In this document: in pieces, positions 47,666 through 53,428 of the stretch | Numbering within the stretch: position 1 is the first letter of the stretch | Layout of the letters: each line of letters begins with the position of its first letter | NCBI GenBank assembly: GCA_030432295.1 | Contig: JAUIHI010000011.1 | Location: forward strand, 1 to 64,000 | DNA from: Anaerolineae bacterium | GTDB taxonomy: Bacteria > Chloroflexota > Anaerolineae > Caldilineales > Caldilineaceae | Reading direction: 5' to 3' | Length of the DNA stretch: 64,000 nt | Notes under the pieces: model-generated | Seen by the model: only the letters and a program-made list of their open reading frames with translations | The model's database searches: none | Told to the model about the DNA's origin: nothing | Made by a program: the position numbers and the translations under genes

Positions 47666-49843
47666 TCTTGTCTTGTGTCCGTTGACGTAAATCGGGCTGG
47701 ACCAGGCCGCGTGGCCGTCGGTCTGAAGCGCTTTGACAAAATAGGGCGTGCGCTCGCCTGCTGGCGGGGTGAGGGTTTGGGTCAGTTGCAGACTGTACGC
47801 TGCAACCTCCTCCGGGTAGCGCTCGACGCAGACCTGCATTCCCAGCCCGCCAAAATCGAAAATCCGCTGCCTGTCGCTCTCCTCCGGGCCGAGACGCAAT
47901 TCTGCCAGTTCTACTTCACAGCGACCCACCGCCGACTCGAAGATCAGCCGCCCACTGTCCGCCCGGTTCAGGGTCAGGTCAATGCCGTCGGTGTCGCCGG
48001 TGGTGGAACTGGCAAAGGCGATCTGCTGCCCCTCCTGCCCGGTGATGCCGTCCGCGGCCGAGTCGAAGGCAAAGGGGGACGCGGCCAAAATCGTCGCGCC
48101 TTCCACACGAATCGAACCGTCCCAGACCACCCGCCGCCCCCGACCCCGCATACGCGCGCCCCGCCAGCTCACCCGCACCCGCCGGGACGGATCGCCAGTG
48201 GTGAATGCAGCGGGCCGCACCTGCGCAATCGCTTCCCGGCCCTGAAAAAGCGTCAACGATTCCAGCGGGCCACAACCCACGACCGACGCCCGAACATCCA
48301 CAGGCCCGGACGCGTCGATGACCGACCCCATCGGCTGGCCGTCAATGGCAAAGTCCAGATCGATGCGAGGGCCTGTCGTGCCGTAGCAGCGGCGGGAACG
48401 GAGGGCAGCAAAGACCGCATCCCGCGTCAGCGTCTCGGCCAGCACGCAGGTCAGCCCGCCCCCAATCCCAAACTCCCCCGCGCTGGGACCTTCCGCGCCG
48501 GGTCGGCCTTTGTGGCCGTCGCTGTTGCACATCACCCCGACTGTATAGCCCATCTCGAAGGCATCCCACAGCATCCACTCGAAGACACCCCAGCAGGAGA
48601 CCAGCTCCACCAGCGGCCCCAGTTCCTCGTCGAAATAGCGGCGGATGTCGGCGTAACGTCCGCCTACGTGACTGCCCAGCAGCACATCCTGCGGCGGGAT
48701 GTGCTGGCGGATGCGGGCAAAGAGTTGGCTGGCCGGGTGGGCCGGGCTGGCCGCGTCCTCCGGCGTGTGGGGAATCTGCCAGTGGCTGGAACGGAAGATG
48801 GGCTGGCCCTCCTGCCGGTAGATGACGTTGCGGTCGCCGCCAGCCGGGGTGTTGGCCGACCATTCGTAGCCGGGGAAGACGACAAAGCGGCCCTCTGCGT
48901 GAAACTGGCTGACTGTGCGGTTGAGGTGCGCCCAGTAGGCATCGTCCATTTGAAAGTCATTGCCCTGATGGCTGGCAAAATCCAGCCGGGCCACATCCCG
49001 GCCAAAGGTGAAGTATTCGGCCTCTGTGCCCGTGCCCACCGTGCCCGCGGTCTGGGCGTGGAGATCGCCCCAGAAACGGGCGCGGGGTGGACGTTCGGCA
49101 AAGGCAGTGATGGGGTTGCTGCGACAGGACAGATCGCCTGCGCTTGCCAGCACCCAGCCTGTGCTCGGCGTGTGGCAGAGCAGGCGATTGCCCTCAATCT
49201 CCGCCGCGCCTTCTCCGCTCCAGGCCAGTTTCAGGTCGTTCGGGGCAGGTGTGGGGTTGCCCCAGCGATCCTGCCCCTTCACAAAAATCTCCACCCGCTC
49301 ACCTACGACTGTTTGGGCGGGGAGAATACAGACCAGTTCCACCGCGGGGCCGGAGACGACGGGAAAGAACGGCGAAGTGGGCAGGGGCAGGGCGACGCTG
49401 GCGTTGGTGGGATCGACCAGCAGCCGGAATTCGTGGGCCGACTCCTGGAAGGTCTGGGCGCGAATACCGGGCGATCCCTGACTGCGGTCGCCGAGGGTGA
49501 TGGTTACAGTGTCGCCGGGAGCCAGGCTGCCGTCGTAGACATCGATGACCAGGCACTTCATCCAGGGCCGTTCGTGGCCCTTGCGGTGGAAGTAGGGGCG
49601 CAGCCGGGCCGGGCCGTCGGTGGTCACAGTCGTGTAGCCGGGCGCGGCGGGCTGGTCAAATTGAGGCATTTCCCAATCGCTGGCAAAGCGCTGGGCCAGT
49701 TTCAGCGTGCCCCCCTCGTCGATGCCGTAGCTGCCGACAGTGTAGGTGAGGGTCCACTGGCCGACGCTGCCCGCTATCACCGGGCCGGGCGGGTCAAGAG
49801 TCACTATTCCCAGCCGATGGCTGGTCAGTTCGTCGTCGGTCAT
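47648..49843 (-). CDS. DUF3604-like (PHP-like) protein
   Basis: 731 residues. The first ~260 are beta-rich with a sugar-binding-like look. From about residue 273, ARFWGDLHAQTAG starts a PHP/DUF3604-like metal-hydrolase domain, with LDFASHQGND, GYEWSANTP, GSHVGGRYAD and MCNSDGHKGRPG supplying His and Asp residues for metals. Its reaction is unknown. The start overlaps the GNAT gene stop by four bases (ATGA), so the two are coupled. The stop lies in a palindromic element. Confidence 0.78.
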   Translation of the reverse strand: MTDDELTSHRLGIVTLDPPGPVIAGSVGQWTLTYTVGSYGIDEGGTLKLAQRFASDWEMPQFDQPAAPGYTTVTTDGPARLRPYFHRKGHERPWMKCLVIDVYDGSLAPGDTVTITLGDRSQGSPGIRAQTFQESAHEFRLLVDPTNASVALPLPTSPFFPVVSGPAVELVCILPAQTVVGERVEIFVKGQDRWGNPTPAPNDLKLAWSGEGAAEIEGNRLLCHTPSTGWVLASAGDLSCRSNPITAFAERPPRARFWGDLHAQTAGTVGTGTEAEYFTFGRDVARLDFASHQGNDFQMDDAYWAHLNRTVSQFHAEGRFVVFPGYEWSANTPAGGDRNVIYRQEGQPIFRSSHWQIPHTPEDAASPAHPASQLFARIRQHIPPQDVLLGSHVGGRYADIRRYFDEELGPLVELVSCWGVFEWMLWDAFEMGYTVGVMCNSDGHKGRPGAEGPSAGEFGIGGGLTCVLAETLTRDAVFAALRSRRCYGTTGPRIDLDFAIDGQPMGSVIDASGPVDVRASVVGCGPLESLTLFQGREAIAQVRPAAFTTGDPSRRVRVSWRGARMRGRGRRVVWDGSIRVEGATILAASPFAFDSAADGITGQEGQQIAFASSTTGDTDGIDLTLNRADSGRLIFESAVGRCEVELAELRLGPEESDRQRIFDFGGLGMQVCVERYPEEVAAYSLQLTQTLTPPAGERTPYFVKALQTDGHAAWSSPIYVNGHKTRLAPVE

Positions 49844-50340
49844 CGCTCGTTTCCTTCCAGAATCAGTTCCATCACTACCGAAGGCGTGCCCACCCGGTTG
49901 GCGATCTCCTCGACGGTGACAAAGCCCAGCCGTTGGTAGAGATGGACAGCCGGATTGCTGCGCCGCACAGAGAGAACGAGCGCGGGATAGTGACCAGTCA
50001 CTTCGGTAATAAGTTGTGCCAGCAGCGCGCTGCCGACACCCCGGCCCCGCCACTCTGGACGCACGCCGATTGCCAGTTCGGGGATGTACGCGGCCGCGTA
50101 GTTGCGGGCGTAGTAACTGTGTTCCAGCAGACGCACCCAGGCCGCGCCGACTGCCGATCCGCTTCCGTCCACCGCCAGCACGCCAATATCGCCGGGTCTG
50201 CCCCAGCCCTCCACATACTTTTTGAGGAAGGGATCGGCCTGGGCCGCGGCCACCGGACCGGCCATTGTAGCCGCGTAGGTCAACATCTCCCACAGCGCCG
50301 ATAGGTCTTCCACTGTAGCCACACGGATCGAATGTGTCAT
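49840..50340 (-). CDS. GNAT family N-acetyltransferase
   Basis: 166 residues, a full single GNAT domain. The acetyl-CoA loop is RPEWRGRGVGSALLAQL near 94-110, and NPAVHLYQRLGFVTVEE near 130 is the C-terminal motif. The substrate is unknown. It is translationally coupled to the DUF3604-like gene downstream. Confidence 0.9.
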   Translation of the reverse strand: MTHSIRVATVEDLSALWEMLTYAATMAGPVAAAQADPFLKKYVEGWGRPGDIGVLAVDGSGSAVGAAWVRLLEHSYYARNYAAAYIPELAIGVRPEWRGRGVGSALLAQLITEVTGHYPALVLSVRRSNPAVHLYQRLGFVTVEEIANRVGTPSVVMELILEGNER

Positions 50341-50379: not shown

Positions 50380-51639
50380 TTATGTCCGATAGTCCCCGTT
50401 GATGGTCACGTAGTCGTGGCTCAGGTCACAGGTCCAGACGGTCGCGCTGCCACTGCCCAGGCCCAGGGCGACCCGCACGGTCACGTCCCGCTGGGCGAAG
50501 ATGGCTGCGGCGTCTTTTTCCGCGTAGTTGGTGGGTGTCCCTGCGGTGACCAGTTGCAGTTCCGGGTTGGCAGCCTGGGGTTCCCCGGCGGCGATGTAGA
50601 GTTCGGCGTTCTGTGGCAGCACCTGCGCGCCGGAATAGCCCACCGCGCAGAGGATGCGACCCCAGTTGGCGTCGCTGCCGAAGAAGGCAGTCTTGACCAG
50701 TGGACTGGTGGCAATGGAATTGGCGGCTCGGTGTGCATCCGCGTCGCTGGTTGCGCCCTGCACCTGCACAGTGACAAACTTCGTCACGCCCTCGCCGTTC
50801 TGCACAATCAGCTTCGCCAGTTCCGCGGATGCGCCTTCCAACACGGCCACAAAAGCCGCATAGGCCGGGCTGCTGGCGTCGGTAATTTCGGCGTTGCCCG
50901 CCGCGCCGTTGGCCAGGACAATGACCGTATCGTTCGTGCTGGTGTCCCCGTCCACACTGATGCGGTTGAAGCTGCGGTTGACTGTCTCAGTCAGGGCCTG
51001 TTGCAGCAGGGGCTGGCTGATGTTCACGTCCGTAGCCAGCACACCCAGCATCGTCGCCATATTGGGATGGATCATCCCCGCGCCTTTGCTGATACCGGTG
51101 ACAGTGACGGTCACGCCGTCCACCTCGGCCTGGCGGGAGGCCCATTTGGGGAAGACATCGGTGGTCATAATCCCACGGGCAGCGGCTTCCCAGCCGGTGG
51201 GGGAGAGTTGGGCTGCCACTTGGGGCGCGCCGTTCTCGATCTTTTCGATGGGCAGTTGCACGCCGATGACGCCGGTGCTCATCACAAAAACTGTGTTGTC
51301 GCTGCTGCCCAGCGCCTTTTCCGCGGCTTCGGCCATCCGTTTGGCATTGACATTGCCCTGGACAGCCGTGCAGGCGTTGGCGCAGCCGCTGTTGATCAGC
51401 ACGCCGTGTATCGCGTCCGGGTTCATCCCCAGCAGTGCTTTGTCGTAGAGCACCGGCGCGGCGGGGAAGGCATTCTGGGTGAAGACGGCCGCGGCTTTGC
51501 AGGGCAGCCGGGAAGCGATCAGCGCCAGGTCCGGCGCGCCGTTCTTTTTGACGCCACAGGCGATTCCCGCCGCGTCAAAGCCCAGCACAGGGATGGGCGA
51601 AACGGAGGGCGCAGGAAAGGGGTGGGGTTTGCTGGTCAT
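50380..51639 (-). CDS. argJ: Bifunctional glutamate N-acetyltransferase/amino-acid acetyltransferase
   Basis: 419 residues. ArgJ recycles the acetyl group from N-acetylornithine to glutamate in arginine synthesis. The precursor cleaves itself before the Thr in HPNMATMLG near 190, giving alpha and beta chains. LINSGCANACT near 75 and NRISVDGDTSTNDT near 220 are family blocks. ATG 51639 was chosen from homology; the frame upstream is repeat. argG lies just upstream on the same strand, 264 bases away, behind a nested palindrome. Confidence 0.95.
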   Translation of the reverse strand: MTSKPHPFPAPSVSPIPVLGFDAAGIACGVKKNGAPDLALIASRLPCKAAAVFTQNAFPAAPVLYDKALLGMNPDAIHGVLINSGCANACTAVQGNVNAKRMAEAAEKALGSSDNTVFVMSTGVIGVQLPIEKIENGAPQVAAQLSPTGWEAAARGIMTTDVFPKWASRQAEVDGVTVTVTGISKGAGMIHPNMATMLGVLATDVNISQPLLQQALTETVNRSFNRISVDGDTSTNDTVIVLANGAAGNAEITDASSPAYAAFVAVLEGASAELAKLIVQNGEGVTKFVTVQVQGATSDADAHRAANSIATSPLVKTAFFGSDANWGRILCAVGYSGAQVLPQNAELYIAAGEPQAANPELQLVTAGTPTNYAEKDAAAIFAQRDVTVRVALGLGSGSATVWTCDLSHDYVTINGDYRT

Positions 51640-51664
51640 TGGCTGGTTTCTCCGTGGGGGAAGT

Positions 51665-51899
51665 ATTGCGAGTTGCGGGTTGTGAGTTGCGTAGGCAGTC
51701 AGATTGGCAGCTCGTTCAATCGAGCTTTGTTGTGACGAGTCAAGTGAAAAACTCGGTTTTTGGCCTTGTTGCAGTGGCGTAGTAATGAAACGTGAAACGC
51801 GAGAAAGGCCGAACAATCTCGCGTTTCACGTTTCATCAGTGCTTGCGATCTCAAAAACTCACTGGTTTGTCACTACCCTCACAATTCGCAACTCGCAAT
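51665..51899. repeat. Nested palindromes between argG and argJ
   Basis: Outer arms 51665-51686 and 51878-51899 (ATTGCGAGTTGCGGGTTGTG type) pair with two mismatches. Inside, 51786-51804 and 51817-51835 are a perfect 19-bp palindrome of the GTGAAACGTGA family. Also inside is AAAAACTCGGTTTTT at 51747-51761. It looks like one repeat inserted into another. Confidence 0.75.
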
Positions 51900-51903
51900 T
51901 CGC

Positions 51904-53169
51904 TCAGTCTCGCTTGAATTCTGTGTAATCCGTCGTGTCGTAGTCGCTGGCACCCGGACCCTCCATACGCAGCATCGCTTCGACTTTCAGGGGCAGGCCA
52001 AAGAGTTTGATGAAACCCTCGGCGTCGGCCTGGTTGTATACGTCGTCCTCGTCGAAGGTGACGTAATCCTCCCGATAGAGGCTGTGGGGGGATTTGCGCC
52101 CGGCCAGAATAACGTTGCCTTTGTAGAGTTTCAGCCGCACAGTGCCGGTGATATTCTGCTCGGTGGTCTGTACAAAAGCATCCAGGGCCTTGCGCAGGGG
52201 GGTAAACCACTGGCCGTTGTAGACCAGTTCGGCGTAGCGCAGCCCCACCTGCTGTTTGTAGTGCAGGGTGTCTTTGTCCAAACAGAGCTGCTCCAGCGCG
52301 GCGTGTGCTTTGTAGAGAAGCGTGCCACCCGGCGTCTCATAGACGCCCCGGCTCTTCATCCCCACCAGCCGATTTTCCACAATATCCACCCGACCGATGG
52401 CGTGCTTGACGCCCAGTGCATTTAGCTCCTGCACCAGCCCCACCGGTCCCTTTGCCACGCCATTCACCCGCTCTGGCACGCCCTGGCGGAAGTAGATTTC
52501 CACATATTCAGGTTTGTCGGGCGCATCCGTCGGGTCGGTGGTCCACTCAAACATATCCTTGGGCGGCTCGTTCCAGGGGTCTTCCAGGGGGCCGCCTTCG
52601 TTGCTCAGATGCCAGAGGTTGCGGTCCTGGCTGTAGATGCGCTCCATTGTGGCCTTGACCGGTACATTCCACTCCGCCGCGTAGTCCAACGCGTCTTTGC
52701 GGCCGCGGATGTCCCATTCCCGCCAGGGGGCGATGATCTTCAGTTTGGGATTGAGGGCCATCACAGTCAGTTCGAAACGCACCTGATCGTTGCCCTTGCC
52801 GGTTGCGCCGTGGGCGATGGCGTCGGCCCCTTCCATCTCGGCCACCTCCACCAGCCGCTTGGCAATCAGCGGGCGGGCAAAGGATGTGCCCAGCAGATAG
52901 TCCCGCTCGTAGAGCGCGCCGGCCTGCATTGTGGGGAAGACGAAATCGGTGAGGAATTCGGAGCGCAGGTCCTCCACATAGCACTTGGACGCGCCCGAAG
53001 CGATGGCCTTCTCTTCCAGGCCGGGCAGTTCGTCGTCCTGGCCCAGATTGGCGCAGAAACAGACGACCTCGCAGCCGTAGTTGTTCTTCAGCCACGGCAC
53101 AATCACACTGGTGTCCAGCCCACCCGAATAGGCGAGGACTGCTTTTTTGACGGTTCCCGTTTTGGACAT
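51904..53169 (-). CDS. argG: Argininosuccinate synthase
   Basis: 421 residues. It joins citrulline and aspartate with ATP in the penultimate step of arginine synthesis. The PP-loop is [11 protein letters not shown] near 12-22, [13 protein letters not shown] near 123 binds citrulline/aspartate, and EGGPLEDPW near 200 is conserved. The ribosome site AAGGAG lies eight bases before ATG 53169. The leader of about 220 bases carries an intrinsic terminator and an upstream Arg-rich ORF, so expression is probably controlled by attenuation. Confidence 0.97.
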
Positions 53170-53207
53170 TGGGGTTCTCCTTGTGAAAAAACGTGTAAAA
53201 ACACAAC

Positions 53208-53240
53208 AAAAAACGCCACCCGGATGATCCGATGTGGCGT
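53208..53240 (-). terminator. Intrinsic terminator in the argG leader
   Basis: On the minus strand ACGCCAC (53240-53234) pairs with GTGGCGT (53219-53213). Inside the loop CGGAT and ATCCG pair further. Six T follow. It ends 39 bases before the argG ATG and 54 bases after the leader ORF stop, the usual position of an attenuator. Confidence 0.8.
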
Positions 53241-53294
53241 GCAGGAAACGGTGCAAATGGGCAGAAAAACAGACCGAACCGGGAATCCGATTCG

Positions 53295-53369
53295 CTAGCG
53301 GTCTGTGTACCCGCTTCCTGCGGGCCTCCTCCTGCGCAATGCAATGGACAGCATCTGTAATATTCTCAT
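53295..53369 (-). CDS. Putative Arg-rich leader peptide of argG
   Basis: A 24-codon ORF from ATG 53369 to TAG 53297-53295. Codons 12-15 are CGC AGG AGG AGG, four Arg in a row, and codons 2 and 24 are also Arg. Right after the run, CCCGC and GCGGG can pair. ACAGACCG (53306-53299) can pair with CGGTCTGT around 53274-53267, giving possible pause and anti-terminator stems before the terminator at 53208-53240. A weak point is that no clear ribosome site precedes the ATG. It could also be chance. Confidence 0.5.
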
Positions 53370-53399
53370 AGGCATTGATCAAACAGCCAACTGCAGGTA

Positions 53400-53428
53400 A
53401 GCCTACCCCAGAAAATGGGGAAAGTCAA
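53400..53428 (-). promoter_or_regulatory. argG promoter
   Basis: On the minus strand TTGACT (53428-53423) and TAGGCT (53405-53400) are 17 bases apart. The transcript would start near 53393, about 24 bases before the leader ORF. On the plus strand TATACT (53455-53460) could be the -10 of the divergent small gene. Confidence 0.55.

Follow-up and report, generated by a model that had tools for sequence, protein, structure and literature searches.

A conserved leader with consecutive arginine codons upstream of argG in Caldilineaceae, a candidate ribosome-mediated attenuator

The argG leader and its reading frame

The window analyzed here is a stretch of 64,000 nucleotides (contig JAUIHI010000011.1) whose source genome belongs to Caldilineaceae (Chloroflexota), and its minus strand carries, in this order, a promoter, a short open reading frame (ORF), a terminator, argG, argJ and a GNAT gene. 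A preliminary description of this DNA had read the region in front of argG as a candidate amino-acid attenuator with arginine codons in its leader peptide. From the comparison of related sequences, we likewise consider it likely that the argG leader acts as an arginine-sensing, ribosome-mediated transcription attenuator, doing the job that elsewhere falls to ArgR. The features on which this interpretation is built are the following, all on the minus strand:

53400..53428, minus strand: sigma-70-type promoter TTGACT-N17-TAGGCT (from sequence and recurrence across genera)
53295..53354, minus strand: leader ORF of 19 codons, ATG at 53354 and TAG at 53297-53295 (from conserved start and stop positions)
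53325..53336, minus strand: putative sensor codons CGC AGG AGG AGG, codons -6 to -3 before a GGA codon (from comparison of 37 leaders)
53310..53324, minus strand: local hairpin P-a, CCCGC-AGGAA-GCGGG
53311..53321, minus strand: 5' strand of the long-range helix P-b, GCAGGAAGCGG, inside the leader ORF (from covariation)
53264..53306, minus strand: P-c, a variable middle hairpin enclosed by P-b, ACAGACCG...CGGTCTGTTTTT (from folding)
53241..53251, minus strand: 3' strand of P-b, CCGTTTCCTGC, ending directly 5' of the terminator stem (from covariation)
53208..53239, minus strand: intrinsic terminator CGCCACATCGGATCATCCGGGTGGCGTTTTTT
51904..53169, minus strand: argG, argininosuccinate synthase, 421 amino acids (PF00764 and PF20979)

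Our searches covered the genus of the window and then the order Caldilineales, which is represented in the collection by one family, named Caldilineaceae. The leader is present in 37 of the 44 order genomes in which argG was matched, and in one more (G030) it is cut by the contig end, yet matched by the covariance model. argG lies downstream of the leader in every Caldilineales case; in G005 the two are found on separate contigs. The preliminary description had reasoned that relatives keeping argG without both the arginine run and the terminator would speak against an attenuator; instead, 37 of the 44 retain the two features amid variable surrounding bases. The constant core consists of the Arg codons, GGA AGC about four codons further on and then a stop, and it is surrounded by variable sequence that includes the N-termini and tails of the ORFs. 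The promoter previously placed at 53428-53400 is also real, recurring 5' of the leader across genera as TTGACTTT-N17-TAxxCT. Over 396 genomes of the class, strong matches of the covariance model were confined to the window's family, and seven further matches at E values of 0.002-0.01 are at about chance level. When a DNA pattern was run over all GTDB species, argG adjoined 21 of the 29 matches, the other eight being chance-like. As a side observation, the argG matches of all four genus g2 genomes (G007-G010) are listed with one in-frame TGA; the leader is missing there as well.

The 24-codon ORF described earlier at 53369-53295 stands as an open frame containing CGC AGG AGG AGG, but not with its start: the ATG codons at 53369 and 53375 are in frame and 5' of the conserved start at 53354, and are themselves not conserved. 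Counted in codons relative to GGA, the start codon is located at -12 in all seven genomes of the window's genus and some others, at -14 in most leaders of genus g3, and at -9 in 10 of the 13 leaders that belong to neither genus. In 36 of the 37 leaders, the reading frame meets its first stop between +12 and +33 nt, and TAA, TAG and TGA all occur. Other reading frames were rejected as the true leader gene, since conserved stop spacing is seen in frame 0 only. Starts and stops fixed in this way are characteristic of an ORF under translation, from which we infer that the leader is translated. The same pattern bears on the alternative that a riboswitch or protein-binding RNA senses arginine directly, with the ORF being incidental. 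While the strong conservation of AGGAGG..GGAAGCGGG at the nucleotide level and the compact long-range fold would suit such an RNA, the starts and stops are constrained in a gene-like manner with varying stop codons, Arg is kept in relatives via differing codons (CGC, CGA, CGT, AGG), no large unpaired pocket is conserved, and Rfam, T-box included, yields no match over threshold for the leader and chance-level scores only, so that direct sensing by RNA appears very improbable.

Arg occupies codon -5 in 33 and codon -4 in 32 of the 37 leaders, and in-frame Arg codons are found in all 37. AGG accounts for 87 of the 144 leader Arg codons (60%), compared with 3 of 169 (1.8%) in six genes of the window. 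According to theory, attenuators choose those codons that are most sensitive in tRNA charging (discussed in PMC1183508). Applied by analogy to the argG leaders, this theory would account for AGG, the use of which fits the idea of rare, charging-sensitive codons as the sensor of an attenuator.

Pairing elements, terminator and the proposed switch

The possible pairing segments mentioned in the preliminary description could be assigned to the strands of P-b (53321-53311 and 53251-53241) and to P-a (53324-53310). P-b joins GCNGGAAGCGG, within the ORF, to a distant segment 2-6 nt 5' of the terminator GCC, and the gap between the core partner hexamer and this GCC is 2-6 nt in all 37 leaders. Across the alignment, 88% of the P-b cells are paired, five pairs show double changes, and at the Ala wobble base A-U, G-C, C-G and U-A pairs all occur. 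P-b and the terminator stem taken together have 91.7% of cells paired and 26 double-change cells against 7.5 in shuffles, none of 500 shuffles reaching 26. Shifting P-b by one to three columns lowers the pairing to 41-55%, a control that shares with the other counts the anchoring of the P-b partner on its core hexamer in the counting alignment, which favors pairing.

P-a, with 90% of cells paired across the leaders, is absent from genus g14 and from leader L051. It shares GGAAGCGG with P-b and the two exclude each other, providing the competing helices of a ribosome-mediated attenuator. The 5' arm of P-a lies within the footprint of a ribosome positioned at the Arg codons. In the window's order, these codons are located 12-18 nt 5' of P-b, a distance that equals the downstream footprint of a ribosome. 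In this genome, P-c (53264-53306; ACAGACCG...CGGTCTGT followed by T5), located between the strands of P-b, resembles a second terminator; its sister genomes retain the hairpin but not the T-run.

The pairing also bears on the idea of an arrest peptide, in which the nascent chain RRxPAGSG would detect arginine, or some other metabolite, within the ribosome tunnel and the ribosome thus arrested would control the terminator. Conservation of RRxPAGSG is strong in two genera and in several more, and leader peptides linked to arginine or ornithine exist (speF orf34, PMC6386406). However, pairing of P-a and P-b at the nucleotide level accounts for PAGSG, and genus g14 has RTTHGSRY, RTTQGSRE or RTFLGSRV and L051 has RRTGGSIR, with Arg codons and P-b remaining. 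Across genera only Arg and the Gly-Ser encoded by the P-b strand persist, rather than a peptide of the SpeFL or TnaC type, and in other families the Arg runs sit in unrelated peptides. An arrest peptide is thus improbable in our view.

The terminator with six T described earlier holds up, its stem and T6 spanning 53239-53208. The helix is 98% paired across the order (97.8% in the 37 leaders, all of which have the T-tract), and the stem CGCCACATCGG...GGGTGGCG with T6 is nearly invariant in the window's genus. Constrained folding of 27 leaders revealed no classical antiterminator excluding the terminator in Caldilineales. P-b adjoins the terminator without overlapping it, making the two neighbors rather than competitors and departing from the trp/his scheme. 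P-a and P-b are mutually exclusive hairpins of the kind that the preliminary description suggested looking for, but in the folded order leaders nothing excludes the terminator. The attenuator reading of that description is largely upheld, with two corrections: the conserved start is at 53354, and P-b lies beside the terminator and does not form a textbook antiterminator. With a leader ORF, an Arg run followed 3' by argG, and an intrinsic terminator between ORF and gene, the Caldilineales leader is like a ribosome-mediated attenuator, but we withhold strict membership in the classical type because an exclusive antiterminator was tested for and not found. Taken by itself, the prediction of the terminator in every ribosome state would also agree with a constitutive promoter-proximal terminator next to a chance ORF, without regulation; conservation in 37 genomes, covariation, fixed start, stop and Arg positions and the use of a rare codon leave that explanation next to no probability.

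How could an attenuator with these parts work? In the model we propose, a ribosome would initiate on the 19-codon leader ORF. With ample charged Arg-tRNA, it would pass the Arg codons, most of them AGG, run to the stop and leave; P-a could then form and P-b would be disfavored, and the terminator would fold and end transcription before argG. If Arg-tRNA is short, the ribosome would stall at the Arg codons with its leading edge over CCCGC, P-a would be blocked, and GGAAGCGG ahead of the stalled ribosome would be able to join its partner beside the terminator, forming P-b. Because both outer strands of P-b exit from the same end of the helix, the stalled ribosome would be held within a few nucleotides of the 5' arm of the terminator, and, docked there, it might interfere with the folding of the terminator and so permit transcription of argG. 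Of the components of this model, sequence supports the leader ORF with its Arg codons, P-b, the terminator and the conserved spacings. The translation and stalling steps, and the direction of the response, are those that this arrangement suggests: the leader very probably switches argG on only at arginine shortage, and the following argJ is probably under the same attenuator. That P-b together with the ribosome blocks termination is a tentative proposal. It is somewhat more speculative still that a helix docks the Arg-stalled ribosome on the terminator as a new mode of attenuation, within widespread ArgR-independent argG attenuators in Chloroflexota.

Several observations weigh against an arginine attenuator of this kind. 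In RNAfold, the probability of the terminator is 0.8-1.0 for the naked, the Arg-stalled and the at-stop RNA in all 27 order leaders. Six argG-bearing order genomes have no leader (four of genus g2, G037 and G039), and some leaders have a single Arg among codons -5 to -3 (e.g., L045, L068, L069 and L026, the last with two further Arg upstream). As the preliminary description had pointed out, the leader ORF has no clear ribosome-binding site, and the site is indeed weak in this genome; a GAGGA-type sequence precedes the leader ATG in several relatives. A ribosome at a stop located at +33 would not cover the P-b strand, and the off state would then rest on P-a alone. Finally, anchoring of the P-b partner biases the counting alignment toward pairing.

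Arginine leaders in other Chloroflexota families

In other families of the same class, 60 regions 5' of argG were compared. An ATG-started short ORF with at least three Arg in six codons is present in 52% of them, whereas dinucleotide-shuffled versions reach 22% and the reverse strand 13%, and Arg is the sole strongly enriched residue. These leaders are unrelated in sequence to the Caldilineales leader and spell Arg as CGA, CGT, CGC or AGG depending on the lineage. The design with an abutting long-range helix is found again, in unrelated sequence upstream of argG, in family f15 (L136-L146) and in L159, and the Arg-rich leaders of f15 precede a different terminator (AACCACGA...TCGTGGTT). In L175, L177, L179, L182, L184, L180, L200 and L202, the last two of which belong to another class of the phylum, a segment of the ORF is complementary to the terminator itself. 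Several classical-looking leaders have an ORF end (...PSG*, CCGTCTGG) that pairs with CCAGACGG inside the terminator.

Folding of 14 other-family leaders, hand-picked for an Arg ORF plus terminator and not counting the abutting leaders L136, L137, L139 and L159, which show no switch, gave a terminator that was off with the ribosome at the first Arg codons and on with the ribosome at the stop in seven, compared with 15 of 840 trials (1.8%) with shuffled spacers. In these seven, folding thus predicts an antiterminator that overlaps and excludes the terminator, and the switching leaders are classical in this regard. The other-family leaders, with their predicted folds, lend independent support to the sensing of arginine at argG within the phylum.

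Known leader peptides rich in R or K respond to ribosome-targeting drugs. It is therefore conceivable that the argG leaders sense translation or ribosome availability in general, for example an antibiotic via an R-x-R motif, rather than arginine specifically, and an Arg-Leu-Arg motif is mentioned in PMC8632094. Given that argG follows the leader throughout Caldilineales and that Arg is enriched before argG in unrelated leaders, we regard general sensing as highly improbable.

Known systems, regulators and the surrounding genes

Textbook attenuators respond to Trp, His, Leu, Ile/Val, Thr and Phe, and control of arginine biosynthesis is usually attributed to ArgR or T-boxes. With the trp, his, leu, ilv, thr and phe attenuators, the argG leader shares an ORF that contains end-product codons and stops early, helices that compete, an intrinsic terminator and a downstream gene of the same pathway; it differs from them in the amino acid, and the long-range helix in Caldilineales abuts the terminator instead of overlapping it. 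In E. coli pyrBI, a ribosome close behind the polymerase prevents terminator folding without a dedicated antiterminator. There, however, UTP is sensed via polymerase pausing, whereas the argG ribosome would stall far upstream and be brought near by the helix. If it is an arginine attenuator, the argG leader would make it possible to ask directly whether a tethered ribosome, rather than an antiterminator, can block a terminator.

A likeness also exists to Salmonella speF orf34, where a ribosome that pauses on two adjacent Arg codons in the leader ORF alters the downstream RNA structure (PMC6386406). That enterobacterial system differs in controlling a polyamine gene through Rho-dependent termination and RNase G decay, with no intrinsic terminator (PMC6386406). 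The LEU element of actinobacterial leuA, in which the base stem pairs Leu codons with the leuA ribosome site, similarly places a leader ORF with end-product codons inside a conserved RNA fold partly unlike the textbook, for leucine instead of arginine; for actinobacterial arginine operons, no conserved RNA element is described in the same study (PMC1262725). T-box arginine leaders and ArgR operators perform the same task at arg genes, but here there is neither a T-box match in Rfam nor ArgR in the order: PF01316 scored above cut-off in 0 of 46 order genomes and 1 of 199 class genomes, in a search whose positive control detected it in 8 of 14 named control genomes. Our search of the open full-text literature found no attenuator of bacterial arginine biosynthesis, and none in Chloroflexota; most subscription papers lay outside it and priority is unproven. 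If true, an arginine attenuator across this large and mostly uncultured lineage of Chloroflexota would explain how argG is tuned largely without ArgR, and the divergent argG leaders would constitute a natural design set for studying attenuator evolution.

Two genes follow argG at the locus:

50380..51816, minus strand: argJ (PF01960), start not settled
49840..50340, minus strand: GNAT N-acetyltransferase (PF13508 and PF00583)

A search for a second leader copy in the own genome gave none at up to two mismatches and a single match of the covariance model, and a plasmid search gave no match. The genome also contains two argC homologues above cut-off (L197 and L198), each closely behind another gene; no obvious leader was seen at either. 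Lastly, a stop-free frame runs on the minus strand of the window at 51904-53382 (492 codons from TTG 53382), from 5' of the leader across the terminator into argG.
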